Assembly: GCF_900199215.1 (NCBI RefSeq)
Contig: NZ_FZQA01000001.1
Span: 868,001-932,000, forward strand
DNA from: Amphiplicatus metriothermophilus
Lineage (GTDB): Bacteria; Pseudomonadota; Alphaproteobacteria; Caulobacterales; Parvularculaceae
DNA length: 64,000 nucleotides
Direction of reading: 5' to 3'
Shown: positions 9,115 through 51,083 of the stretch, one piece after another
How positions within the stretch are numbered: the stretch's first letter is position 1
How the letters are laid out: each line of letters begins with the position of its first letter
Program-made: the position numbers and the translations under genes
The notes under the pieces: model-generated
What the model saw: the letters and a program-made list of their open reading frames with translations, nothing else
What the model was told of the DNA's origin: nothing
The model's database searches: none

Positions 9115-10518
9115 CTATTCGGCTTCCAACGCCGCGAGGACGTCGGCGCAGAAGCGCGCGATGTCGAAGCTGACCGTCGGGCTTTCATCGAAGCCGCGGC
9201 GCACGACGACGACGTTCCGTTCCGGGACGATCATCACATATTGCCCGCGATTGCCCATTGCAGCGAAGCTGCCCTCGGGCAGGCCGTGGCGCGGCCCGAA
9301 CAGCCAGAATTGCGCGCCGTAGCCGGGCCGGCCTTCCGGCGGCTGCGAAGGCGCCGGCGTCGCGACGAACGCGGCCCAGCCCTCGGGAAGGATGCGCGCG
9401 CCGTTCCATACGCCGTCGTTGAGATAAAGAAGGCCGAGCCGGGCGAGGTCGCGCGCCGTCGTCCACACCTGGCTCGACAGCACGAAATCGCCGTTCCAGT
9501 CGGTTTCGAGAAAGGTCCGGTTCATGCCGAGCGGAAACAGCAGCTTCTCGTAAGGAAAGCGCCAATAGGCGCCGTCGTCGCCCATGCGTTCGCGCAGCGC
9601 GCGCATCGCCGCCATGGTGTCGTTGTTGGCGTAGCGCCAGCGCGTTCCGGGCGCGGCGACGAGCCGGTTCGGGATCGCGTGATCGACGACGAGCCCGCCG
9701 CCGAAATAGACGTCGTCGGTGCGGTTGCCGGCCGTAAGCGACGTAAGCCCGCTCGACATGTGCAACAGATTCTCGATCGTGATCGCCGCGCGCGGATCGC
9801 CCGGCGCCGACCATTGGGCGAGGCCGGCCGGCTCGCCTGGCGCGATCAGGCCCTGATGCGCGGCCGCGCCGATGATCGTCGCCGCGATCGACTTCGCGAC
9901 CGACCAGGTGCGCTGGGGAACGTCCGGGCCGAATCCGTCCCGATATTTTTCTGCGACGATGCGCCCGTCCTTCACGACCACCACCGCTGTCGTCTCTGTT
10001 TTCTCTCCATAGCTCGCCCGGTCGAAGGCCGCCGCGACCACGGCGTCGAGGGCGGGGTCGGGATCGATCGCGACATGCTCGCCCGCCGGCCATTCGGCGC
10101 GGCTGTCCTTGCGCGGCCGGTCGAGCGAAAGCCGCGGCAGGCGCCCGGCCAGGGAGGCGTCGGCGCCGCTCGGCAACTGCGCGCAGCCGAGCAGCGGGCG
10201 CCAGGCGGCGATGCGCGGCGGAAATCCTTCCGCATAAGCGACCGAGACGGTCTTGTTCTTCTCGTCGATGCGTGCGGCCGGCAGCGCCGCCATCGCCTCG
10301 CGATAGTCTGCGTAAATATTGGCGAGCTCGTCGCGGTCGATCTCGTCGAGGCTGCGGCCCGCATTGAAATGCGCCGAGCAGGCGAAGGCCGCCTTGTAGC
10401 CGGCGACGAGCGACAGATGGGCCGGGTCGGCCTCCTGGGCGCGGGCGGGGCCGGACAGGGCTGCGAGCAGCGCAAGCGTCGCGGCGCCAGGCAAGGAGCG
10501 GAACGAAGCGGCGATCAT
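9115..10518 (-). CDS. Exported serine hydrolase, class C beta-lactamase fold
   Basis: A 467-residue protein with a signal peptide (about 1-27, cleavage near ARAQ) and a penicillin-binding/class C beta-lactamase-type domain from about 150. The catalytic SxxK is S206-V-A-K209 (in TWSVAKSIAAT) and the YxN triad element is Y296-A-N298. The third, KTG-like motif is not standard: the equivalent region reads MGNRGQY. This pattern is common in esterases and 6-aminohexanoate-dimer-hydrolase-like enzymes, so the substrate (ester, amide or peptide) cannot be assigned and antibiotic resistance should not be inferred. The N-terminal 120 residues are a separate alpha-rich segment. Confidence 0.85.
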   Translation of the reverse strand: MIAASFRSLPGAATLALLAALSGPARAQEADPAHLSLVAGYKAAFACSAHFNAGRSLDEIDRDELANIYADYREAMAALPAARIDEKNKTVSVAYAEGFPPRIAAWRPLLGCAQLPSGADASLAGRLPRLSLDRPRKDSRAEWPAGEHVAIDPDPALDAVVAAAFDRASYGEKTETTAVVVVKDGRIVAEKYRDGFGPDVPQRTWSVAKSIAATIIGAAAHQGLIAPGEPAGLAQWSAPGDPRAAITIENLLHMSSGLTSLTAGNRTDDVYFGGGLVVDHAIPNRLVAAPGTRWRYANNDTMAAMRALRERMGDDGAYWRFPYEKLLFPLGMNRTFLETDWNGDFVLSSQVWTTARDLARLGLLYLNDGVWNGARILPEGWAAFVATPAPSQPPEGRPGYGAQFWLFGPRHGLPEGSFAAMGNRGQYVMIVPERNVVVVRRGFDESPTVSFDIARFCADVLAALEAE

Positions 10519-14594: not shown

Positions 14595-16574
14595 TCATGG
14601 GGCGGCCCGGATCGCGCTAGCCTTTCTCATGCGGCGGGCGCGCCTGAGCGCGCGGATGAAAAAACGCGCCGGATGCAGCGCCTCGGCGATTTCATGATCG
14701 ACGGGCGCGGGCTCGCCGGTCATCTCGGCGGCGATCATCGCCGCGGCGAGGGGGGCGGTCACGAGCCCGCGCGAGCCGAGCCCGGCGAGAATGTAGACGC
14801 GGGGAAGGGCCTCGCCGGGCGGGAAGGCCCTGCGCGCGCCGGCGCGCAGATCGTCATAGGCTGCGCCGTAAAAGCCCAGATCGGGCGCCGGACCGGCGAC
14901 CGGCAGCCGGTCCGGCGTCTGGCAGCGGACGGAGGCGCGCGGGCGCGCGGCCGCCGGATCGAGCCGGCGGGCGATCGCCGGCGCGACAGCGGCGAGGGCG
15001 GCGATGTTCGCTTCGCTCGCGCGGCGCGAAGAGGAGGGCGCCGCGCCCACGCCCAGCCGTTCATAGGTCGCGCCGATGACCAGCCCGCCCTGCGGGGCGG
15101 GCGCGGCGTAGGCGCCGCAGGCGCGCGCGCCCGACGGGGGCGCGACGTCCGGGAACCAGTCAATCTGGCCGGCGACGCGCGTCAAGGGCAGCCCGCGCGC
15201 CTCGACGAAGCGCAACGCGTCGGCCCCGTTCGCCAGCACGGCCGCGGCGAAACCTTCATGCAGGCCGCCGTCGGTCTCGACCGCGATCGCCGCCCCGTCG
15301 CGGACGAGCCGGCGCGCGCGGGCGCGCACGACCGGCGCCGCGCCCGCCAGCGCTTCGACGAGACGGCGGGGATCGATCACGCCCGCCTGCGGCAGGAACA
15401 GGCCGTCCGCTTCACGCTTCAGCCAGTCCGGCGGCAGAAGCCCGCTTTGCGCGATGCGTTCAAGGCGGTCCTTATCCGCTGCGTCCTTCGCGCCGAGCAG
15501 CACGCCGCAGGGAAGATATATCGGCCTTTCTTCTTCGCCCATGCCTGCGTCTGAGGCGTCCGCCAAGTCATTCAGCACACGAATTGCATAAAGATAGGCG
15601 GCGAGGAAAAATCGCGCCGCCGGGCCGGCGTCGAGGTCGAGCCGCGGCATGACAAGTCCTGCAGGATTGCCCGAGGCGCCGGCGGCCAGCGCCTCGGCCT
15701 CGAAGATCACGGGGACCAGTCCCGCCCGCTGCGCGGCGCGCGCCATGCTCGCCCCGGCGATTCCGCCGCCGATGACGGCGACGCGCGCGCCCGGATCGAG
15801 CCTGGCGCCGTTTACGGACTGAAACCATGGCGCGCGCTTCGAACGCGCGACGGTCGGCGCGTCGAGCCGACCCGCCAGCATTTCTTTCTTGCGCCCGAAA
15901 CCAGGGCGTTTTTCGTGAGCGAAGCCCGCTTCGGCGAGACGGCGCCGCACGGCGCCGGCGACGGTGAAGGTGGCGAATGTCGCGCCCGGCTTCGACAGGC
16001 GCGCGGCCTCGCGAAACAGCGCCGCGCGCCACATCTCGGGATTTTTCGACGGGGCGAAGCCGTCGAAAAACCAGGCGTCGATTTCGCCCTCGGCGCGCGC
16101 GAGCATCGCGCCGGCCTCGCCGTATGCCAGGGTCAGCGCGACGTCCCCGTCGAGATCGAGACGGTGAAAGCCCGCGACCGGCGGCGGCAGAAGCGCGCGC
16201 AGGCGCGCCGACAGCTCGGCGAGCGCAGGCCAGGCCGCGTGCGCGCGCGCCATGTCCTGCGCCGACAGAGGCCAGGCTTCGACGGAGAAAACCCGCAGCC
16301 GCGCGCCGGCGGGCTTATCCGTCTCGCGCCACAGCGCCCAGCTCATCAGAACGTTGAGTCCCGATCCGAAGCCGAGCTCGCCGATGGCGAAACGCCCCCC
16401 TTTCGCGAAGCGCCGGGGAAGGTCGTTCCCGTTCATGAAAACATGCGCGGCTTCGGCCGGTCCGTGTCCGGAGAAATAGACGTCGCCAAAGGCGCGCGCC
16501 CGCGGCGCGCCGTCTTCCCAGTCGACTTCGGCCGGCAGGATGCGCGGCGCCATTTCGTCCTTTCCGCCGGTCAT
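14595..16574 (-). CDS. mnmC: Bifunctional tRNA mnm5s2U biosynthesis protein MnmC
   Basis: A 659-residue two-domain enzyme that finishes 5-methylaminomethyl-2-thiouridine at the tRNA wobble base. The N-terminal half is a SAM-dependent methyltransferase (GELGFGSGLN at 65-74; the DGFAPSKNPEMW catalytic segment near 171-182). The C-terminal half is an FAD-dependent oxidase of the DAO family that removes the carboxymethyl group, with dinucleotide motif VAVIGGGIAGASMA at about 265-278. Full domain order and length match MnmC of gammaproteobacteria. It is transcribed toward cbs; its start is 128 bases from the divergent lyase gene. Confidence 0.93.
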   Translation of the reverse strand: MTGGKDEMAPRILPAEVDWEDGAPRARAFGDVYFSGHGPAEAAHVFMNGNDLPRRFAKGGRFAIGELGFGSGLNVLMSWALWRETDKPAGARLRVFSVEAWPLSAQDMARAHAAWPALAELSARLRALLPPPVAGFHRLDLDGDVALTLAYGEAGAMLARAEGEIDAWFFDGFAPSKNPEMWRAALFREAARLSKPGATFATFTVAGAVRRRLAEAGFAHEKRPGFGRKKEMLAGRLDAPTVARSKRAPWFQSVNGARLDPGARVAVIGGGIAGASMARAAQRAGLVPVIFEAEALAAGASGNPAGLVMPRLDLDAGPAARFFLAAYLYAIRVLNDLADASDAGMGEEERPIYLPCGVLLGAKDAADKDRLERIAQSGLLPPDWLKREADGLFLPQAGVIDPRRLVEALAGAAPVVRARARRLVRDGAAIAVETDGGLHEGFAAAVLANGADALRFVEARGLPLTRVAGQIDWFPDVAPPSGARACGAYAAPAPQGGLVIGATYERLGVGAAPSSSRRASEANIAALAAVAPAIARRLDPAAARPRASVRCQTPDRLPVAGPAPDLGFYGAAYDDLRAGARRAFPPGEALPRVYILAGLGSRGLVTAPLAAAMIAAEMTGEPAPVDHEIAEALHPARFFIRALRRARRMRKASAIRAAP

Positions 16575-16702: not shown

Positions 16703-17869
16703 ATGACCGAACAGAAAAACCGCCCCGCCTTCGCGACCCGCGCGATCCACGCCGGCCAGGAGCCCGATCCGCTCACCGGCGCGGTCATGCAGCCGATCTA
16801 CCAGACCTCGACCTACGCCCAGGAAAGCCCCGGCGTGCACAAGGGGTTCGTCTACGCCCGCGGCGCAAACCCGACGCGCTTCGCCTACGAGCGCTGCCTC
16901 GCCGATCTCGAGAACGGAGCCCGCGGCTTCGCCTTCGCCTCCGGCATGGCGGCGATCTCGACCATGCTGGAGCTGTTCCCGGCGGGCGCGCATGTGGTCG
17001 CCATGGACGACGTTTACGGCGGCACCTACCGGTTGTTCGAACGGGTGCGCAAGGACTCCGCCGCGCTTTCGGTGTCCTATGTCGATCTGTCGAAGCCGGA
17101 AGCGCTCGACGCGGCCGTTCGCCCCGAAACGAAACTGGTCTGGATCGAGACGCCCACCAATCCGATGCTGAAGATCGTCGACATCGAGGCGGTTTCGAGA
17201 ATCGCCAAGAAGCACGGACTTCTCGTCGGTTGCGATAACACTTTCGCCTCGCCCTATTGTCAGCGGCCGCTCGATCTCGGCGCCGATATCGTGATGCATT
17301 CGGCGACGAAATATATCGCCGGCCATTCCGACGTGGTGGGCGGCGCGCTTGTGGCGAAAGATAATTCGCTCGCGGAACGCCTCGCCTTTCTCCAGAACTC
17401 GGTCGGCGCGATTCAGGGGCCGTTCGATTCGTTTCTGGCGCTGCGCGGGCTGAAGACCCTCGCGTTGCGGCTCGAACGCCATTGCGCGAACGCGCTCAGC
17501 CTCGCTGCGTGGCTGGAGGCCCATCCCGCTGTCGCGCGCGTCGCCTATCCGGGCCTTGAAAGCCATCCCGGCCATGCCGTCGCGCGCCGCCAGATGGACG
17601 CCTTCGGCGGCATGGTGACGATCTGGCTCAAGGGCGGGCTCGAGGCCGCGCGGACCATGCTCGAACGGGTCTCGCTCTTCACGCTCGCCGAGTCGCTGGG
17701 CGGCGTCGAAAGCCTGATCGAGCATCCGGGGCTGATGACTCACGCTTCGGTGCCGGCCGCGCGCCGGGCTGAACTGGGCGTCGACGATTCGCTGGTGCGC
17801 CTGTCGGTGGGCGTCGAGGACGTCGAGGACCTGCGCGCCGATCTCGATCAGGCGCTCAAAGGGTTGTGA
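16703..17869 (+). CDS. Trans-sulfuration PLP enzyme (cystathionine gamma-lyase/synthase-like)
   Basis: A 388-residue Cys/Met-metabolism PLP enzyme. The cofactor lysine is about K203 in HSATKYIAGHSD; the substrate/cofactor segments YARGANPTR, ASGMAAISTML and ETPTNPMLK are present. I start it at the ATG at 16703; the frame extends 9 codons upstream but that part is not conserved. Cystathionine gamma-lyase, gamma-synthase and related enzymes cannot be separated by eye. The nearby cystathionine beta-synthase argues for the lyase direction (cystathionine to cysteine plus 2-oxobutyrate). It is followed after 110 bases by an exported M14 peptidase. Confidence 0.88.
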   Translation: MTEQKNRPAFATRAIHAGQEPDPLTGAVMQPIYQTSTYAQESPGVHKGFVYARGANPTRFAYERCLADLENGARGFAFASGMAAISTMLELFPAGAHVVAMDDVYGGTYRLFERVRKDSAALSVSYVDLSKPEALDAAVRPETKLVWIETPTNPMLKIVDIEAVSRIAKKHGLLVGCDNTFASPYCQRPLDLGADIVMHSATKYIAGHSDVVGGALVAKDNSLAERLAFLQNSVGAIQGPFDSFLALRGLKTLALRLERHCANALSLAAWLEAHPAVARVAYPGLESHPGHAVARRQMDAFGGMVTIWLKGGLEAARTMLERVSLFTLAESLGGVESLIEHPGLMTHASVPAARRAELGVDDSLVRLSVGVEDVEDLRADLDQALKGL

Positions 17870-17979: not shown

Positions 17980-20568
17980 ATGCGCCCTGTCGCCGCCGCT
18001 ATCGTCGCCGTCGCGCTCATCCTGTTCCACTTTCCGGCGCTGGCCGAGCCGATCGATTATTATCGCGCGCCAGGCGCGTACTACGATCCGGCGATTCCGA
18101 CGCCTGACGAATTTTTCGGCCATGGCCTCGGCGACAAGCCGGTGCGGCACGACATGATGGTCGCCTATATGCGCGCGCTCGCTCGCCAGTCGCCGCGCAT
18201 CGCGGCCGAGACAGTCGGCTTTTCGCACGAAGGCCGGCCGATCCTGTTCCTCACGATCACCGCGCCGGAAAATCATGAGCGGCTCGATGACATTCGCGCC
18301 GCGCACATCGCCCGGCTCGCCCCAGATGCGCCGGATACGGACGGTCCCGCCGTCGTCTGGCTGCATTACGGCGTGCACGGCGCGGAATCCTCCGGCATGG
18401 ACGCCGCCATCCCGACGCTCTATCACCTCGCCGCCGCGCAGGGCGAGGCGATCGAAGAGACGTTGCGCGATACGGTCGTGCTGATGGTCGCGATCTTCAA
18501 TCCGGACGGCCACTCGCGCCGGGTCAATCACGTCTACACCTTTCTGAGCGAGACGCCGGTCACGGATCCTGCGCACGCCCAACACAATCTGTGGATCGAG
18601 GCGCGCACGAATCATTACTGGTTCGACCTCAACCGCGACTGGATGCTCCAGACGCAGCCAGAGAGCCAGTCATGGATCGGCAAGTGGCATGAATGGAAGC
18701 CGAACGTCGTCGGCGACTTCCATGAAATGGGCTCGAACAGCACCTATTATTTCCATCCGGGCGAACCGCGCCGGGTGAACCCGCTCATCCCGGAGAGAGC
18801 GCGCGAACTCGCCTCAGCCTTCGCAGAGGAGTACCGCGGCCGGCTCGACGCGGCGGGCGAGCTTTACGCCTCCGAGGAGGGCTTCGACAATTTCTATGTC
18901 GGCAAAGGTTCGACTTATCCGCAGGTCAATGGGGCCGTGGGAATCCTGTTCGAAGCGGCGGCCGCGCGCGGCGGGCGCATCGATACCGATAACGGCCTGC
19001 GCACCTATGCGCAGAACATCCGCATCCACTTTAACATGTCGCTTTCGACGATTGAAGGCGCGCGACGGCATCGCGCGGCGCTGCGCGCCTATCAGCGCGC
19101 GTTCTTCGCCGGCGCGCCGCGCGAAGCGCGCGCCCATCCGGTCAAGGCCTATGTCTTCACGACCGCCGGCGACGAGGCGCGCCTCGATCATTTTCTGAAG
19201 CTGCTCGCGCGCCACGACGTCGCCGCCTACCGGCTCGCCCGCGACGTCGCGGCGGGCGGGCGCGACTTCCGCGCTGGAGCGAGCGTCGTCGTGCCGCTCG
19301 ATCAGCCGCAGCACCGCTTCATCCGCGCGCTGTTCGATCGCGTGACCGAGTTCGAAGAGAACGTCTTTTACGACGTCTCGGGGTGGACGATGCCGCTCGC
19401 CTACGATCTCGATTACGCCCCGCTCGACGGCATGCGCTACAACGCTTCCCTGCTCGGCGAGCGCGCCCGCGGCGCCGGCTACGCCAAGCCCGCCCCCGGC
19501 GAGGCGCGCTACGGATATATCTTCGACTGGGAGGACTATTACGCGCCGCGCGCGCTTCATCGCTTTCTGAGCGAGGACGTGATCGCGCGCGTGCTGGCCG
19601 CGCCGAAGACGCTCGCGATCGACGGCGCGCCGCGCGAATTCCGCCGCGGGGCGATCTTCGTTCCCTTCGCGGGGCAGACGGTTTCGCGCGAGCGCATCGC
19701 GCAGATCGCCGCGCGCGTGGCGCGCGAGGACGGGGTCGACATTTTTCCGCTGGACAGCGGAAACGCCGCGCCGGGCGTCGGCGATCTCGGCGCGAGCCGC
19801 AGCGTACGCTCGCTCAAAAAACCGAAAATCCTGCTCCTGTTCGACGACGGGGTCTCGCGCTACAGCGCCGGCCAGATCTGGCACCTGCTCGACTGGCGCA
19901 TGAAGATTCCGGTCGTCATGCGGCGCAAGAACGACCTCGGCGGGCTGAAACTTTCCGATTACACCCATATCATTCTGCCGGGCGGACGCGGCGCGCGTCT
20001 GGACGACAAGGACGCGGAGACCGTGAAAACATGGGTTCGCGCCGGCGGCGTGCTGATCGCGACGGCCGACGCCGCGGTCTGGGCGCAAGGCGCCTTTCTG
20101 GCGGATGCGGCGCGCGAAAAACCGGCCGAGGAAATCCCGGCGGGCGAAGAGCGCCTCGATTACGCCGAAAAAACGGTGAAAGACGCCGAGCATGTCATCG
20201 GCGGGGCGCTGTTCGAAAGCGATCTCGACATCACGCACCCGCTTGGCTTCGGCTACGCCGACCGCGCCATCGCGACCATGAAGACCGGCGCTCATGTGCT
20301 GGCGACTCCGAAAAATCCTTACGCGACGGTCGCGCGCTATACGCAAGCGCCGCTCCTGTCAGGCTATGCGTCCGAGCGTCGTGTCGGCGAGATCGCGGGA
20401 ACGCCAATGCTCGCTGCCGATCGCCTGGGCGCTGGAGCTATCGTTCTGTTCACGGACGATACGTCCTTCCGCGCGACTTTTCTCGGCGCGGACAAGCTGT
20501 TCATGAACGCGGTGTTCTTCGCGCCGATCGTGGAAGCCGCAGGAGCGGCGGGCGCGGCCGCGCATTGA
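17980..20568 (+). CDS. Exported M14-family zinc carboxypeptidase with C-terminal GATase-like domain
   Basis: An 862-residue secreted peptidase. The ATG at 17980 follows a GGAGGAG ribosome-binding site (17964-17970) and opens a signal peptide cleaved near LAEP. The zinc ligands of the M14 carboxypeptidase fold are visible as H133-G-A-E136 (VHGAESSGMD) and H248 in GDFHEMGSN. After the peptidase domain comes a linker and, from about residue 600, a segment with an LLLFDDG start and a PGGRGARL turn that resembles a glutamine-amidotransferase-like fold, as in large bacteroidete and proteobacterial M14 proteins. The peptide substrate is unknown. A GC-rich hairpin follows 62 bases after its stop. Confidence 0.88.
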   Translation: MRPVAAAIVAVALILFHFPALAEPIDYYRAPGAYYDPAIPTPDEFFGHGLGDKPVRHDMMVAYMRALARQSPRIAAETVGFSHEGRPILFLTITAPENHERLDDIRAAHIARLAPDAPDTDGPAVVWLHYGVHGAESSGMDAAIPTLYHLAAAQGEAIEETLRDTVVLMVAIFNPDGHSRRVNHVYTFLSETPVTDPAHAQHNLWIEARTNHYWFDLNRDWMLQTQPESQSWIGKWHEWKPNVVGDFHEMGSNSTYYFHPGEPRRVNPLIPERARELASAFAEEYRGRLDAAGELYASEEGFDNFYVGKGSTYPQVNGAVGILFEAAAARGGRIDTDNGLRTYAQNIRIHFNMSLSTIEGARRHRAALRAYQRAFFAGAPREARAHPVKAYVFTTAGDEARLDHFLKLLARHDVAAYRLARDVAAGGRDFRAGASVVVPLDQPQHRFIRALFDRVTEFEENVFYDVSGWTMPLAYDLDYAPLDGMRYNASLLGERARGAGYAKPAPGEARYGYIFDWEDYYAPRALHRFLSEDVIARVLAAPKTLAIDGAPREFRRGAIFVPFAGQTVSRERIAQIAARVAREDGVDIFPLDSGNAAPGVGDLGASRSVRSLKKPKILLLFDDGVSRYSAGQIWHLLDWRMKIPVVMRRKNDLGGLKLSDYTHIILPGGRGARLDDKDAETVKTWVRAGGVLIATADAAVWAQGAFLADAAREKPAEEIPAGEERLDYAEKTVKDAEHVIGGALFESDLDITHPLGFGYADRAIATMKTGAHVLATPKNPYATVARYTQAPLLSGYASERRVGEIAGTPMLAADRLGAGAIVLFTDDTSFRATFLGADKLFMNAVFFAPIVEAAGAAGAAAH

Positions 20569-29471: not shown

Positions 29472-29548
29472 AGCGGCCTGGGCCGCTCCTCCGGGACGCC
29501 GGCCAGGCGGACCTGTTCTTTTTCTTTTCGAGAGGCGATCGCGCCTCT
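29472..29548. terminator. Hairpins between infC and TerB-like gene
   Basis: Two perfect stem-loops lie between the convergent ends. AGCGGC/GCCGCT (29472-29487) has a 4-base loop, and AGAGGCG/CGCCTCT (29531-29548) has an ATCG loop. The T-rich run TTCTTTTTCTTTT lies between them on the + strand (about 29516-29528), preceded by a short CAGG/CCTG stem that could act as the infC terminator. Neither hairpin alone has a textbook T-tail. Confidence 0.45.
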
Positions 29549-29985
29549 TACGACGCGCCGTTGATCGTCATGTGCCGGGCGCGCGCGGCGTGCTCGATGG
29601 CGCTCGCGCCGGCGTCGTCGACCTTGAGCGCGTCGCGGACGAGTTCGAGCACGCGGATCTCGGTGAGCTCGAGCCCTTCATCGGCGGTGATCACGTCCAC
29701 CACGGCGGCATAGGCGGTCTCCGCGAGATGATCAGGCAGCGCCGCGGCCGCCGCGGCGAGCACCTTGTGCAGTCCGCCTTCCGACGACATCAGCCTGCCG
29801 CAGGATTCCGCAGTCTCGACAAGGCCTGATTCGTCGGACCCGCTGAAAAGCGGAAAGGAGCGCACCACGCGGCCTATGGTCCTCAGCTCGCGGTCGGTGA
29901 TCCGGCCGTCGGAGGCGGACGCCATCACCATGAGATAGATGATCGCTTCCTGGGGGGTGAGTTCGGCGACGCGTTCGGCTGGCAT
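29548..29985 (-). CDS. TerB-family (tellurite resistance B-like) protein
   Basis: A 145-residue acidic, all-helical protein of the TerB/DjlA-N-like family (LTPQEAIIYLMVMASASDGR, ITDRELRTIGRVV, then a second half with VDVITADEGLELTEIRVLE). The acidic DG-containing segments are metal-binding positions in TerB. I start at the ATG complementary to 29983-29985; the frame beyond it to 30060 runs through the heptamer repeat array and is not protein-like. No other ter genes are nearby, so tellurite resistance is not implied. There is no Shine-Dalgarno; the repeat array abuts the start. Confidence 0.85.
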   Translation of the reverse strand: MPAERVAELTPQEAIIYLMVMASASDGRITDRELRTIGRVVRSFPLFSGSDESGLVETAESCGRLMSSEGGLHKVLAAAAAALPDHLAETAYAAVVDVITADEGLELTEIRVLELVRDALKVDDAGASAIEHAARARHMTINGAS

Positions 29986-30100
29986 GAGAGTTACAGGTTG
30001 CAGGTTGGAGGGTGGAAAAGGTAGGTAGCGGCCTCGCATGGGATGAACGACCGCCGCCATCCTGTCAGCCTACAACCTGCAACCCGCAACCTGCAACCTC
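29986..30100. repeat. Heptamer-array intergenic repeat, locus A
   Basis: Between the divergent TerB-like gene and lysS, six contiguous 7-base units run from 29989: AGTTACA, GGTTGCA, GGTTGGA, GGGTGGA, AAAGGTA and GGTAGCG. On the other strand, reading inward from 30098, are GGTTGCA, GGTTGCG, GGTTGCA, GGTTGTA and GGCTGAC. Units close to the genes are the most regular. AGGTTGCAGGTTG (29995-30007) is an exact inverted copy of 30087-30099. The right array ends one base before the lysS ATG. Confidence 0.85.
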
Positions 30101-31687
30101 ATGTCGTCCCGCGCCTTTTCGCCCGCCGATCTTTCCGCCGCCAGGTCCTGGCCGTTTCAGGAAGCGCGCGCGCTCGTCAAACGGCTGGAGCGCATGAAGG
30201 CCCCGGCGGACCGGCCGGTCGTCTTCGAAACGGGTTATGGCCCCTCGGGCCCGCCTCATATCGGCACCTTCGGGGAAGTGGCGCGCACCACCATGGTCCG
30301 GCGCGCCTTCGAGGCGCTGACGGGCCGGCCGTCGCGGCTCGTGTGCTTTTCCGACGACATGGACGGGATGCGGAAAGTTCCCCCGCACCTTCCCAATCAG
30401 GCGCTGCTTGAAAAGCATCTTCAGATGCCGCTCACCTCGGTCCCGGACCCCTTTGATGCGGAGCACTCCAGTTTCGCCCATCACAACAACGCGATGCTGC
30501 GGAAGTTCCTCGACCAGTTCGGCTTCGAGTACGAATTCCTGTCCGCCACGGAATGCTATCGGTCGGGAAAGTTCGACGAGACGCTCATACGCGTGCTTGA
30601 GCGATACGACGCGGTGATGGAGATCATCCTGCCGACCCTCGGCGAGGAGCGGCGCGCGACTTATTCGCCGATCCTGCCGATCTCGCCGTCGTCGGGGCGC
30701 GTTCTCTACGTGCCGATGCTCGAAATCGATCCCAAGGCCGGCGAAGTCCTCTTCGAGGATGAGGACGGAACGAAGGTCAAGACGCCGGTGACCGGCGGGC
30801 GCGCCAAGCTGCAATGGAAAGCCGACTGGGCTGGCCGCTGGTTCGCTCTGGGCGTCGATTACGAGATGGCGGGGGAAGACCTCACCGAGTCGGTCAGGCT
30901 TTCCTCGCGCATCGTCAGGGCCCTCGGCGGCGAACCGCCGGCGGGCTTCAACTACCAGCTCTTTCTCGACGAGAACGGCAAGAAGATCTCGAAGACCAAG
31001 GGCAACGGCATCACCATCGAGGAATGGCTCGCCTACGCCTCGCCGGAGAGCCTGTCGCTGTACATGTTCCACAATCCCAAGGCGGCCAAGAAGCTTTATT
31101 TCGACGTCATCCCGAAGGTCGCCGACGAATATCTGACCTGGCTGCAGAAGTACCCTTCCCAGGAAGGGGCGGCCGCGCTCGACAATCCGGTCTGGCACAT
31201 TCACGAAGGCGATCCGCCTACGGATATATCGCCTGTCTCCTTTGCGCTCCTGCTCAATCTCGTCAACGCGACGGGAACGGGCGATCCTGAAATTTTGCGC
31301 GGCTTCGTCGCCAAATACCGGCCGAACGCCAGCCCCGAAGCGCTGGCGGCGGCGGAAAAGCTCATCGGCTACGCGGCGCGCTATTACGAGGATTTCGTCA
31401 AGCCGAAAAAGCTTTACCGTGCGCCGAGCGAACAGGAGCGCGCGGCTCTTGCCGCTCTGTCGGCGCGCCTCAAGGAGATCGGCGAAGGCGCCGAGGAAGA
31501 GGTCTATCACACTGCGGCCTTCGACGCCGGCAAGGCGAACGGCTTCGAGAAGAACATCCGCGACTGGTTCAAGGGCCTTTACGAGGTCCTGTTCGGCCAG
31601 CCGGAAGGCCCGCGCATGGGCCCGTTCGTCCGCATTTACGGCACGGCGAACACCGCGAAGCTGATCGACGAGGCGCTGGCGCGCTAG
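30101..31687 (+). CDS. lysS: Class I lysyl-tRNA synthetase
   Basis: A 528-residue lysine-tRNA ligase of the class I (archaeal) type, unrelated to the class II LysRS of most bacteria but usual in alphaproteobacteria. The HIGH-like motif is PPHIGT (H53) and the KMSKS-like loop is KKISKTKG near 295-299, both on a Rossmann fold with a CFSDDMDGMRK segment. The C-terminal 180 residues are the helical anticodon-binding cage. No Shine-Dalgarno is present: the ATG directly follows the heptamer array TGCAACC-TGCAACC. No second LysRS is visible in the window. It converges with the peroxiredoxin gene. Confidence 0.96.
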   Translation: MSSRAFSPADLSAARSWPFQEARALVKRLERMKAPADRPVVFETGYGPSGPPHIGTFGEVARTTMVRRAFEALTGRPSRLVCFSDDMDGMRKVPPHLPNQALLEKHLQMPLTSVPDPFDAEHSSFAHHNNAMLRKFLDQFGFEYEFLSATECYRSGKFDETLIRVLERYDAVMEIILPTLGEERRATYSPILPISPSSGRVLYVPMLEIDPKAGEVLFEDEDGTKVKTPVTGGRAKLQWKADWAGRWFALGVDYEMAGEDLTESVRLSSRIVRALGGEPPAGFNYQLFLDENGKKISKTKGNGITIEEWLAYASPESLSLYMFHNPKAAKKLYFDVIPKVADEYLTWLQKYPSQEGAAALDNPVWHIHEGDPPTDISPVSFALLLNLVNATGTGDPEILRGFVAKYRPNASPEALAAAEKLIGYAARYYEDFVKPKKLYRAPSEQERAALAALSARLKEIGEGAEEEVYHTAAFDAGKANGFEKNIRDWFKGLYEVLFGQPEGPRMGPFVRIYGTANTAKLIDEALAR

Positions 31688-31757
31688 AGGTTACAGCAGG
31701 CAGGGCGCAGGTTGCGCCGCGCCTGGATAAGCGTCCGGCGACCTGCCGCCTTAACCT
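31688..31757. repeat. Heptamer-array intergenic repeat, locus B
   Basis: The 63-base gap between the convergent lysS and peroxiredoxin stops carries GGTTACA, GCAGGCA, GGGCGCA, GGTTGCG in phase from 31689 to 31716. Reading inward on the opposite strand from 31756 is GGTTAA followed by GGCGGCA, GGTCGCC and GGACGCT. The arms AGGTTA/TAACCT pair and could give a long imperfect hairpin acting as a two-way terminator, although no T-run is present. The right arm overlaps the last codons of the peroxiredoxin gene. Confidence 0.7.
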
Positions 31758-35227: not shown

Positions 35228-35312
35228 GGAGGTTGCAGAGCGCGGATTGCAAGGGGCAGGCTATGTGCAGCGTCTTCGATCTCTGCAACCTGCGAACTGC
35301 GGCCTGCAACCT
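35228..35312. repeat. Heptamer-array intergenic repeat, locus C
   Basis: The gap between prkA and yeaH carries GGTTGCA, GAGCGCG, GATTGCA, AGGGGCA, GGCTATG in phase from 35231 to 35265. On the other strand, inward from 35311, are GGTTGCA, GGCCGCA, GTTCGCA and GGTTGCA. AGGTTGCAG (35230-35238) is an exact inverse of CTGCAACCT at both 35283-35291 and 35304-35312. The last array base is directly adjacent to the yeaH ATG. As the genes are co-directional, both arms would be in one mRNA and could pair. Confidence 0.85.
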
Positions 35313-41104: not shown

Positions 41105-41199
41105 GAAGGGGTTACGGTGTTAGGTTTTAGGCGTCAGGGCGCGCAGGAAATTTCGCGCTGTTCTCTAATACCGCAAACCCGAAACCTGAAACCGCATCG
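41105..41199. repeat. Heptamer-array intergenic repeat, locus D
   Basis: Between the divergent methyltransferase gene and gloB, the + strand reads GGGTTAC, GGTGTTA, GGTTTTA, GGCGTCA, GGGCGCG in phase from 41109 to 41143. The - strand, inward from 41193, reads GGTTTCA, GGTTTCG, GGTTTGC, GGTATTA (down to 41166). The unit here is a GGTTTNN variant, different from the GGTTGCA type of loci A, C and E, yet the 7-base phase and inward orientation are the same. Confidence 0.8.
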
Positions 41200-44714: not shown

Positions 44715-44810
44715 AGAGGATCAGGGATGACGCGGTTCCTTTTTCTAATCCCTGATCCCTAGCTACTCCCGCCGGTTGCCGCCGCGCGCGCAGCGGTTTA
44801 GCGAGGCGGC
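44715..44810. repeat. Heptamer-type inverted repeat, locus F
   Basis: GGATCAGGGAT (44718-44728) and ATCCCTGATCC (44748-44758) are exact inverted copies around a 19-base loop that includes a C-T5-C run. Both arms contain two units in the 7-base phase: AGGATCA-GGGATGA on the left, and GGGATCA-GGGATTA reading inward on the right. It may serve as the terminator of the TPR gene. It is the shortest member of the set and the one with the most different unit. Confidence 0.65.
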
Positions 44811-45179
44811 ATGACTGAGACCGCTTCGACCGTTCTCTATCGCCTTATCGCCGCCGAAGACTGGGCAACCGCGCAGGACTCCGGCGAGGTTCCGTGGAAC
44901 GCCGACGATCGGCGCGACGGCTTCCTGCATCTTTCGACCGAAGCGCAGGCGCTGGAGACCGCGCGACGTCATTACGCCCATGTAGAGAACCTCTTGGCGC
45001 TTGAAGTCGACGCGGACCGGCTCGCCCATCCATTGCGCTGGGAGCTCGCGCCGAAGCGCGGCGAAAAGTTCCCTCATCTATACGGCCCGCTGCCAGTCGC
45101 CGCAGTGCGTCGCGTGCGCCGGCTCGCGCGCGACGCCGAAGGCGGCTTCCGCTTCGCCGACGAAGGGAGCGGCCGGTGA
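44811..45179 (+). CDS. DUF952 family protein
   Basis: A 122-residue cytoplasmic protein of family DUF952. The typical pieces are [20 protein letters not shown], then DGFLHLST and [16 protein letters not shown] near the end. A relation to the ART/RNA 2'-phosphotransferase fold has been suggested for the family, but no activity is established. Its stop region overlaps the GTG start of pyrD by 4 bases (45176-45179), a conserved pairing in alphaproteobacteria that suggests cotranscription. Confidence 0.87.
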
Positions 45180-49585: not shown

Positions 49586-49712
49586 GCGAGGTTGCGGATC
49601 GCAAGCTGCGGATTGCGGCGCCGGGAGCGATCGCCGCATTCTCCCTACAACCAGGCGCTGCAATCTGCAACCTCGCTTGCGCCCGCCCCCGGCCTCGCCT
49701 AGCAAAACCGGC
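49586..49712. repeat. Heptamer-array intergenic repeat, locus E
   Basis: Between divergent hisI and cysS the + strand reads GGTTGCG, GATCGCA, AGCTGCG, GATTGCG in phase from 49590 to 49617. The - strand, inward from 49672, reads GGTTGCA, GATTGCA, GCGCCTG, GTTGTAG. GCGAGGTTGC (49586-49595) is an exact inverse of GCAACCTCGC (49667-49676), and the match extends imperfectly further. The left array abuts the hisI start codon; the right array ends about 40 bases before the cysS ATG. Confidence 0.8.
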
Positions 49713-51083
49713 ATGGCTCTCGTTCTTTACGACACGATGGCGCGCGAGAAGCGCGAATTCATTCCCGCCAATCCGCGGCGGGTGACCATGTATGTGTGCG
49801 GGCCGACGGTCTACAGCCACGCCCATATCGGCAATTTCCGGGCGGCGGTCGTCTTCGATCTTCTGTTTCGCGTGCTGCGCCATCATTACGGGACGAACGC
49901 CGTCGTCTATGCGCGCAATATCACCGACATCGACGACAAGATCATCCGAGCCGCGCAGGAGACCGGCGAGCCCATCGACGCGATCACCGCGAAATACGCC
50001 GCGATCTATCGCGAGGAGACGGCGAAGCTCAACGTGCTCGCGCCGACGCTGGAGCCGGCGGCGACGGCGCATATCGCGGAGATGATCGCGTTCGTCGAGC
50101 GCCTCCTCGCCGAAGGCTTCGCCTATGCGGCCGAGGGGCACGTGCTCTTCGCCGTCGACCGTTTCGGGGACTATGGCCGGCTGTCCGGCGTCGACCGGGA
50201 CGAGATGATCGCCGGCGCCCGCGTCGAGGTCGCGCCGTACAAGGAAAATCCCGCCGACTTCGTGTTGTGGAAGCCGTCGAAGGAGGGCGAGCCGGGTTGG
50301 GACAGCCCCTGGGGGCGCGGCCGGCCGGGATGGCATCTCGAATGTTCGGCCATGATCGAAAAAGCGCTGGGCGAGACCATCGACATTCACGGCGGCGGGC
50401 AGGACCTGCGCTTTCCGCACCATGAGAACGAAATCGCGCAGTCGGCCTGCGTCCATCGCGGCGCGCCGCTCGCGCGCTACTGGGCGCATAACGGTTTTCT
50501 CCGCATGGGGACGGAGAAGATGGCGAAGTCGCTGGGCAACGTCGTGCTGCCGCGCGATCTTCTGAAGCGCTGGCATGGCGAGGTCTTGCGCTGGGCCCTG
50601 CTGTCGGCCCATTACCGCCAGCCGCTCGACTGGAGCGACGCGCTGCTCGAGCAGTCGAAGCGCCAGCTCGACCGGTTCTATCGCGCGCTCGCGGAAGCGC
50701 CCGACGTCGCGCCGGCAGCGCCGCCCGCCGAGGTCGTCGCCGCCCTCGACGACGACCTCAACATGCCCGAAGCGGCGGCGCGCCTGCACGCCCTGCGCGA
50801 CGCCGCCGCGCAGGCGCAGGGTGAGGAAAAAGCGCGCGCGCTCGCTGCGCTTAGAGGGGCCGGCGCGCTGATGGGTTTTTTCGCCGCCGACCCGGCGGAC
50901 TGGTTCAGGAGCGCGCCGGGAGACGGTCCGTCTGCGGAGGAAATCGAGGCGCGTATCGCCGAGCGCGCGGAAGCCCGCAAACGCCGCGATTTCGCGACCG
51001 CCGATCGCATCCGCGACGATCTCGCCGCGCGGGGGATCGTCATCGAGGACGGCCCGAAGGGGACGACCTGGCGGCGGGAGTGA
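49713..51083 (+). CDS. cysS: Cysteinyl-tRNA synthetase
   Basis: A 456-residue class I aminoacyl-tRNA synthetase. HIGN at 38-41 and KMAKS at 269-273 are the ATP-binding motifs. Zinc ligands C29 (MYVCGPTVY), C211 (LECSAM) and H236 (FPHHENE) give cysteine specificity. The C-terminal DALR helical domain ends with [22 protein letters not shown]. The ATG at 49713 opens [13 protein letters not shown]; the frame reaches upstream to 49524 without likeness. The DUF389 gene follows after 3 bases, so the two may be cotranscribed. Confidence 0.96.

Follow-up and report, generated by a model that had tools for sequence, protein, structure and literature searches.

What are the short tandem arrays at both ends of six intergenic spaces in one stretch of the Amphiplicatus metriothermophilus genome, and why does their 7-base unit change from space to space? 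The stretch analysed here (the window; 64,000 nucleotides of contig NZ_FZQA01000001.1, positions 868,001 to 932,000) had been noted, from its letters alone, to carry heptamer arrays reading inward from the flanking genes. That observation is real in the main and is partly confirmed below. We propose that the inward pairs are probably the ends of a small mobile element of the IVS/S23P kind, and that the six pairs of the window are its gene-less, MITE-like relatives.

Inward-facing heptamer pairs in the window and the source genome

All six spaces (loci A to F) lie between predicted protein genes, none of them inside 23S rRNA, and on the plus strand carry G-rich 7-base units in their left part and C-rich ones to the right of these. 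The pairs span about 50-115 bp without an ORF. Loci A, D and F separate divergent genes, the space of locus A lying between a minus-strand gene at 29548-29985 and lysS at 30101. The features are placed as follows.

Locus A, left arm: 29990..30025, plus strand, GGTTGCA-type heptamers
Locus A, right arm: 30062..30100, minus strand, adjoins the ATG of the class I lysyl-tRNA synthetase gene at 30101
Locus B: 31688..31757, no single strand, weak mixed pair between convergent genes, inverted match p 0.05
Locus C, left arm: 35230..35259, plus strand, starts right after the prkA stop codon
Locus C, right arm: 35283..35312, minus strand, adjoins the ATG of the DUF444 (yeaH) gene
Locus D, left arm: 41105..41138, plus strand, GGTTTNN type, end set by eye
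Locus D, right arm: 41165..41197, minus strand
Locus E, left arm (short): 44715..44730, plus strand, GGGATNA type
Locus E, right arm: 44744..44762, minus strand, stops 48 bp before the gene at 44811
Locus F, left arm: 49586..49620, plus strand, GGTTGCG/GGATTGC type
Locus F, right arm: 49651..49676, minus strand, ends 36 bp before the cysS ATG at 49713

Units of the GGTTGCA type are found at loci A, C and F, the last reading GGTTGCGGAT..., and the units of locus E (AGGATCAGGGAT/ATCCCTGATCCCT) are of the GGGATNA type. Reading base by base upheld the unit labels of the original prediction for A, C and D and revealed that those of E and F had been swapped. The more general claim, that the unit changes between loci within a two-sided family, is borne out. 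Both ends had also been described as abutting genes, which mostly holds, except that the right arms of E and F fall short by the distances given above. The 36-bp 5′ region between the right arm of locus F and cysS holds a GCCTAGCA stretch, seen by eye in relatives too. The lysyl-tRNA synthetase encoded at window positions 30101-31687 is of class I (PF01921).

Each locus was compared with 400 dinucleotide shuffles (lowest attainable p 0.0025) using two statistics, the lag-7 matches in both arms and the best 12-nt inverted match. Within the bounds drawn in the original prediction, lag-7 matches gave p=0.0025 at each of loci A, B, C and D, 0.007 at E and 0.33 at F, and the best inverted match gave 0.0025, 0.05, 0.01 and 0.04 at A to D; E (1.0) and F (0.52) failed this second test. 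When the bounds were moved post hoc to 44715-44762 for E and 49586-49676 for F, lag-7 p values were 0.007 and 0.016 and inverted-match p values 0.002 and 0.009, respectively. Four of the six proposed pairs (A-D) thus pass as drawn, and E and F need tighter bounds. Inverted ends able to form a stem are present at A-D, weakly at B, and at E and F only with the moved bounds.

To place these loci in the source genome, 247 intergenic spaces of at least 35 bp were scanned in a 464-kb sample comprising the window and 20 further 20-kb stretches, some 15% of the genome. Scanning windows with at least 16 of 21 lag-7 matches numbered 8 against 0.77 in shuffles (maximum 4), and those with at least 12 of 14 numbered 13 against 1.03 (maximum 3); overall, strong lag-7 windows were about 10 times commoner in the real spaces. 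Of the remaining lags tested (4 to 14), 5 and 14 exceeded shuffles at some thresholds, neither as strongly as 7. The mean lag-7 match across all intergenic DNA was raised only weakly (z 1.8), and the signal therefore comes from a minority of spaces. Mean autocorrelation is a poor statistic for such a signal, and tail counts were used instead; the expected 7-base periodicity is accordingly found as an excess of strong windows and hardly in the mean. The predicted orientation at gene edges is also found, the G-rich strand running inward from the nearer gene edge in 32 of the 39 arrays of the catalogue, chance hits among them (Fisher p 9e-5). Other loci of the genome share the layout with other units, such as GGGATTA, GCGAATA and GGCTGGT.

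Simple codes for the unit were considered and set aside. A fixed YAGG core is ruled out by GCGAATA, GTGAATN and GTGGCTA units, and a seemingly conserved G in per-phase conservation is confounded by composition and by the choice of arrays. A scan for four successive AGGNNNN units displays the unit repertoire for AGG-type units only, and its internal control is unreliable, since GGA recurs every 7 bases in GGGATTA arrays as well. A strict two-arm TAGG pattern matched one of 386 genomes of the class, and none in the source genome, and is thus too strict to measure spread; its sole match is a TAGGTTC-type two-arm pair (L271) in a genome of the same order but another family. An outgroup of CysS neighbourhoods (80 named loci, those of 9 kb or more scanned) gave 4 array matches at lag 7 in 570 spaces, against 4 each at lags 4, 8 and 14 and 9 each at lags 9 and 12; two of the four lag-7 matches make one inward GTGAATC pair (L036).

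Two further loci bear on how arrays may grow or spread. In L013 (G000:C4:500001-520000), four spaces within 18 kb (1930-2250, 9353-9763, 16898-17392 and 19295-19583) carry GGGATTR-type arrays, and such neighbouring spaces with one unit suggest local spread; the same four spaces also hold GTCATCCCGG/CCCGGGATGAC-like palindromic DNA. At G007:C19:58193-58272, alternating GGGACTA and GGGATTA units form a 14-mer higher-order repeat, which suggests slippage in two-unit steps.

A PF05635 gene enclosed by arrays

On C10 of the source genome (L026), two inward arrays enclose not a short spacer but a 128-aa gene. Its product matches PF05635, the 23S rRNA-intervening sequence protein (E 2e-36), and TIGR02436, the four helix bundle protein, along with a weak match to PF22296 (bAvd) below cut-off. 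A screen blind to gene function was made over 1,076 genes in sampled stretches of twelve genomes. An array faced the gene on some side in 18 cases and on both sides in 2, and both enclosed genes, L026:660-1046 and L255:13560-14012 (the PF05635 match G007:C1:263662), belong to PF05635.

PF05635 matches were found 31 times in 22 of 62 family genomes, in 64 of 397 phylum genomes and in 31 plasmid records, mostly cyanobacterial. The loci read were 30 of the 31 from the family (the remaining one is the L255 match of the blind screen), 48 from the phylum (in sets of 28 and 20, not drawn at random) and 16 of the 31 from plasmids. Among these 94 loci, which include some near-copies of each other, a period-7 array lies at most about 60 bp from the PF05635 ORF in 80 (both arms inward in 43 of them), and 14 have no array at threshold. 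Arrays accompany 29 of 30 family loci (14 with both arms inward), 24 of 28 and 14 of 20 phylum loci (14 and 6) and 13 of 16 plasmid loci (9). At other lags, the family set gave none of 30 at 5, 6, 8, 9, 10 or 11, the first phylum set 2 of 28 at lag 8 and none at 6 and 9, the second phylum set none of 20 at 5, 6, 8 or 9, and the plasmid set 1, 3 and 1 of 16 at 6, 8 and 9. The orientation has exceptions, with both arms on one strand in L311, L323, L337, L353 and L356 and outward arms in L387.

The two arms of a locus mostly carry similar units. In 41 two-arm loci the left and right units differ on average at 0.98 of 7 positions, compared with 2.87 for permuted arms (minimum 2.29; none of 20,000 permutations as low as observed); the difference is at most one base in 33 loci and at least two positions in 8. 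Loci with more distant proteins also have more distant units (Mantel r 0.255; null maximum 0.174; 0 of 5,000) in the 60 loci left of 66 after proteins more than 90% identical had been removed. This correlation is modest, and simple co-inheritance would give it too.

The source genome holds three PF05635 matches, all with arrays, on both sides at L308 and L318 and on one side at L314. L308 and L318 (G000:C10 near 169-171 kb) lie about 1.4 kb apart and have their own inward pairs, of GCGAATA and GTGGCTA type, respectively; the second match has an internal TGA. Across the 62 family genomes, the number of PF05635 matches correlates with that of AGG-type array patterns (Spearman 0.49, p 6e-5), and at least four array-pattern matches occur in 10 of 22 genomes with PF05635 and 2 of 40 without. 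Two genomes, G048 and G073, have several arrays and no PF05635 gene.

PF05635 genes occur in several further intercistronic settings. One has as neighbours the genes annotated for the two ribonucleotide reductase subunits, beta and alpha (nrdB- and nrdA-type). Of two loci between cas6 and cas4, one is without an array within 60 bp and the other has both arms on one strand, and a gene between cas10 and a cmr3-type gene has no array at threshold. The four helix bundle genes of L352, L356 and L361 have such CRISPR-cas neighbours (cas6/cas4 or cas10/cmr3-type) on three different cyanobacterial plasmids. The structurally characterised XCC0516 of Xanthomonas campestris (PDB 2gsc) is PF05635-like (phmmer E 2.6e-22).

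The identity of the gene-bearing copies as IVS/S23P-type elements is well supported, and the assignment of the gene-less pairs of the window as ends of such elements is probable. A tblastn search detected no PF05635 remnant in the six pairs of the window (none at E<=1), and a check of eight longer prkA-yeaH spaces gave none better than E 0.05; the gene-less step therefore rests on architecture, on the units and on the L351/L369 comparison described below.

Insertion sites, orthologous spaces and alternative explanations

Plasmids that are filled or empty at the same site reveal how the arrays arrive. Plasmid C of Trichormus variabilis ATCC 29413 carries a 428-bp insert (the arrays, the gene and a single target copy) that is missing from Nostoc linckia NIES-25 and Tolypothrix PCC 7601 at sites with 97-99% identical flanks; GTAAT borders the insert at either end, forming a 5-bp direct repeat, and occurs a single time at the empty site. 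In Nostoc ATCC 53789, TTCTA lies either side of the insert of pNsp_a and is present in one copy in pNsp_c (flanks 91-98% identical; one further base difference at the right junction). These two clean insertions measure 418 and 428 bp, one target copy included, and neither empty site contains heptamers, so the arrays arrive with the gene. In both cases arms and gene inserted as one piece between genes.

Other comparisons are less regular. L360 compared with L374 places an insertion at an overlapping stop/start codon with a direct repeat of about 3 bp, and the comparisons for L354 and L351 are not clean. The clean 5-bp repeat thus applies to two of five gene-bearing plasmid insertions compared, or two of four if L354 and L351 are counted as one. 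Two sites connect the gene-bearing with the gene-less form most directly. At the L351 site, which has a gene-bearing form, the L369 plasmid has a gene-less array pair of similar unit, the left ends matching at 22 of 23 nt and the right ends differing; at the L358 site, L365 holds a truncated gene.

Turnover at orthologous sites could be followed best at locus C, the space between prkA and the DUF444 gene yeaH. PrkA was found in 55 of the 62 family genomes searched and 52 loci were read; the end of prkA was located in 51 and yeaH lies downstream in 41. Nine of these 41 spaces were left out as too long or not typed (8 of them were viewed), and 32 short spaces were examined, 5 of 15-24 bp and 27 of 30 bp or more. 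A lag-7 excess (p<0.01 each) is present in 21 of the 27. The unit at this site differs between species (GGTTGCA, GGCGTCA, GGGATTA, GGCAATA, GCGAGTA, GTGAATN and others). The long space of G069 has an array at threshold (14 of 21), and that of G050 a decayed GTGAAT pair by eye, but no scan match. On a quick yeaH tree, at least eight unit changes separate the array-bearing rows (unit types by eye), and five congeners (SH-aLRT 100) display three units and two empty sites. Palindromic elements of another kind, of CATCCTTCG...CCTCAGGATGA type, occupy the spaces of G022 (L185) and G011 (L180), and this intercistronic site therefore accepts several element kinds. The idea of a ribosome site bridged by a hairpin at prkA-yeaH was set aside as lacking generality.

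The other spaces of the window are patchier. The space orthologous to locus D holds a GGCARTA-type pair in G007 (L163:15229-15273 and 15292-15319) and one array, at threshold, in G002. By eye, arrays at locus A are confined to the source genome and G006 among 8 congeners seen, and those at locus F to the source genome among 7.

Several features, most of them of the prkA-yeaH space, invite the explanation that arrays evolve in place, with 7-nt polymerase slippage building them and hairpin-templated repair keeping the arms alike while the unit drifts in concert. First, in 20 spaces the arms of one genome match each other better than arms permuted across species (mean 11.6 vs 9.7 of 14; none of 20,000 as high), so both arms change together; this permutation left out four near-copies as well as G013 and G055, set aside on visual inspection, both of which are in the lag-7 test. 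Second, the space keeps its place and roughly its length across two genera, and 10 of the 21 genomes with period-7 arrays there have no PF05635 match. Third, the unit is partly clustered on the yeaH tree (17 changes over all states vs 22.1 in shuffles, none of 200 as low), and part of the pattern is therefore inherited. Finally, long homogeneous arrays and the alternating 14-mer array of G007:C19 suggest slippage. Against in-place evolution stand the heptamer-free empty sites beside gene-bearing filled ones and the enclosure by arrays of PF05635 genes only, among 1,076. Moreover, the arrays of the close relatives G058, G059, G060, G054 and G051 (lag-7 p from 0.002 to 0.157) exhibit point decay and not re-homogenisation. 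We consider it unlikely that evolution in place accounts for the family.

The mobile-element reading accommodates these observations as follows. A complete element would measure roughly 0.4-0.5 kb and consist of a left 7-nt array, one gene and a right array of the inverted unit. The gene product, a four helix bundle protein (PF05635/TIGR02436), may bind its own heptamer on DNA or on an RNA hairpin, perhaps as a pentameric ring with one protomer per unit if it resembles its Xanthomonas relative. Ring binding of this kind would be TRAP-like. Transposition could pass through a hairpin RNA intermediate, with a staggered cut made by a putative host or partner enzyme; we know of no catalytic activity for PF05635 proteins and, for the fuller form, of no integration enzyme or transposase. 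Insertion between co-oriented genes would be tolerated, since a hairpin can form from the arms and the stop and start codons stay intact. Gene-less copies may be remnants of internal deletion or may have moved in trans, and the arrays would then decay by point mutation until a later insertion with another unit refilled the site. The many unit types of such an element would explain why loci differ in unit and why species do so at orthologous sites, prkA-yeaH among them. The original statement that the arrays are not copies of one fixed mobile sequence is thus literally true, yet it missed that they probably represent the ends of a mobile element with many units.

Binding sites of a host regulator, or elements of control at the RNA level, are a considerably poorer prospect. 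The gene-abutting layout would suit them, as would the folding of the prkA-yeaH spaces (RNA folding z <= -2.5 in 15 of the 18 folded, a set that includes locus C) and the proposals made for repeats of Geobacter metallireducens and Beggiatoaceae (PMC2700814; PMC4679880). However, the unit varies within the genome and at orthologous sites and its presence is patchy, unlike a regulator site, and in the divergent spaces A, D and F a transcript of either gene that began inside the space would include just one of the two arms. G-quadruplex elements, the proposal made for the Xanthomonas and Nostoc repeats with the same layout (PMC4692102), are very improbable here: GGGATTA-type units place GGG tracts in four successive units, but four such tracts occur in only 9 of 39 catalogued arrays, and GGTTGCA, GCGAATA and GTGAATN units are without them. 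Chance or composition, which could be invoked for the weak locus B and for the failure of E and F in the inverted-match test as first bounded, has next to no likelihood given the shuffle tests at A, C and D, the tail counts in the sample, the arm-match and lag-7 tests at prkA-yeaH and the PF05635 enclosure screen.

Relation to known repeats and elements

The reading of the pairs as ends of an IVS/S23P-type element joins two orphans, the function of PF05635/S23P proteins, known mostly from rRNA IVSs, and the origin of heptamer repeats. Such repeats have so far been treated separately across phyla, as G-quadruplexes, regulator sites or STRRs, and the element may explain them. If this holds, a common, small mobile element of bacteria has escaped notice, one that shapes intercistronic spaces of operons (prkA-yeaH, and those of nrdB-nrdA type, cas6-cas4 and cas10-cmr3 type), and the pairing of its proteins with their units offers a ready natural set of nucleic-acid specificities open to in vitro testing. 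More tentatively, and with somewhat less than even confidence, we hypothesize that the orphan heptamer repeats of Xanthomonas, Nostoc, other cyanobacteria, Geobacter and the present family might form one very widespread class of mobile elements lacking any recognisable transposase. Their sole gene would encode an Avd relative, each protein lineage would read its own 7-nt unit as a pentameric ring on about five units, either on DNA or on hairpin RNA copied back into DNA, and the rRNA IVS would be a special case. Among the matches listed in a literature search, which left most subscription journals and bioRxiv uncovered, no paper joins heptamer repeats and an S23P/four helix bundle gene as an element outside rRNA.

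MITEs are short elements without an ORF that have inverted ends and fuller relatives elsewhere in the genome. The gene-less pairs resemble them in having a candidate fuller relative in the source genome, the three PF05635 matches (one with an internal stop), and differ in that their ends are tandem arrays of a variable unit. The heptamer tandem repeats of cyanobacteria, named STRR, are related in kind, as the original prediction supposed. The TAACTGA heptamers of Beggiatoaceae and Cyanobacteria are likewise intergenic and upstream of start codons (MacGregor, 2015; PMC4679880), but consist of one unit in almost only direct orientation, apart from a single inverted instance in the main genome. 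In Geobacter metallireducens, tandem hepta- and octanucleotides that occur in pairs have been read as putative sites of a global regulator; some classes are paired on opposite strands, as here, and the passages compared draw no link to PF05635 (PMC2700814).

The closest gene-bearing counterpart is the IVS of Coxiella 23S rRNA, of about 428 nt, with an S23p ORF, terminal inverted repeats forming a stem and tandem GACAGAT heptamers directly 5′ of the ORF whose number varies between strains (PMC4990558). Size, S23p-type gene, inverted ends and heptamers 5′ of the ORF are common to both, and among the passages compared heptamers beside S23p are recorded in that paper only. The Coxiella IVS, which is excised by RNase III, is situated inside 23S rRNA, unlike the elements described here, which lie between genes, and it has an S23p ORF, whereas the pairs of the window have none. 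XCC0516 is described as a homopentamer of four helix bundles (PMC4990558; PMC10053308), and PF05635 resembles the Avd protein of diversity-generating retroelements (PMC10053308).

The closest counterpart in layout is found in Xanthomonas, where 70 and 75 convergent heptamer pairs were counted in two strains; pairs were scarce in Nostoc (Rehm et al., 2015; PMC4692102). The original prediction's claim that no equivalent had been described does not hold, since these pairs are convergent and gene-abutting, although in a gammaproteobacterium and not an alphaproteobacterium. The repeats of both genera (GGGAATC and GGGGA(C/T)T) were read as G4 repeats with generally no mobile-element association, and the words four helix, S23 and XCC0516 are absent from the main text of that study. 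Shared with the Xanthomonas pairs are the period of 7, G-richness, a mostly intergenic placement, by preference no more than 50 bp from ORFs, the convergent pairing and the strand rule, as well as conserved sites with variable length and sequence. The GGGANTN unit of Xanthomonas with its G4 capacity differs from what is found here, where 9 of 39 arrays have four GGG tracts and loci A, C and F are of GGTTGCA type. Furthermore, the Xanthomonas study reports one consensus per genome, as opposed to the many unit types per genome observed here. The layout is therefore of an already known kind, and what is new is the variety of units within one genome.
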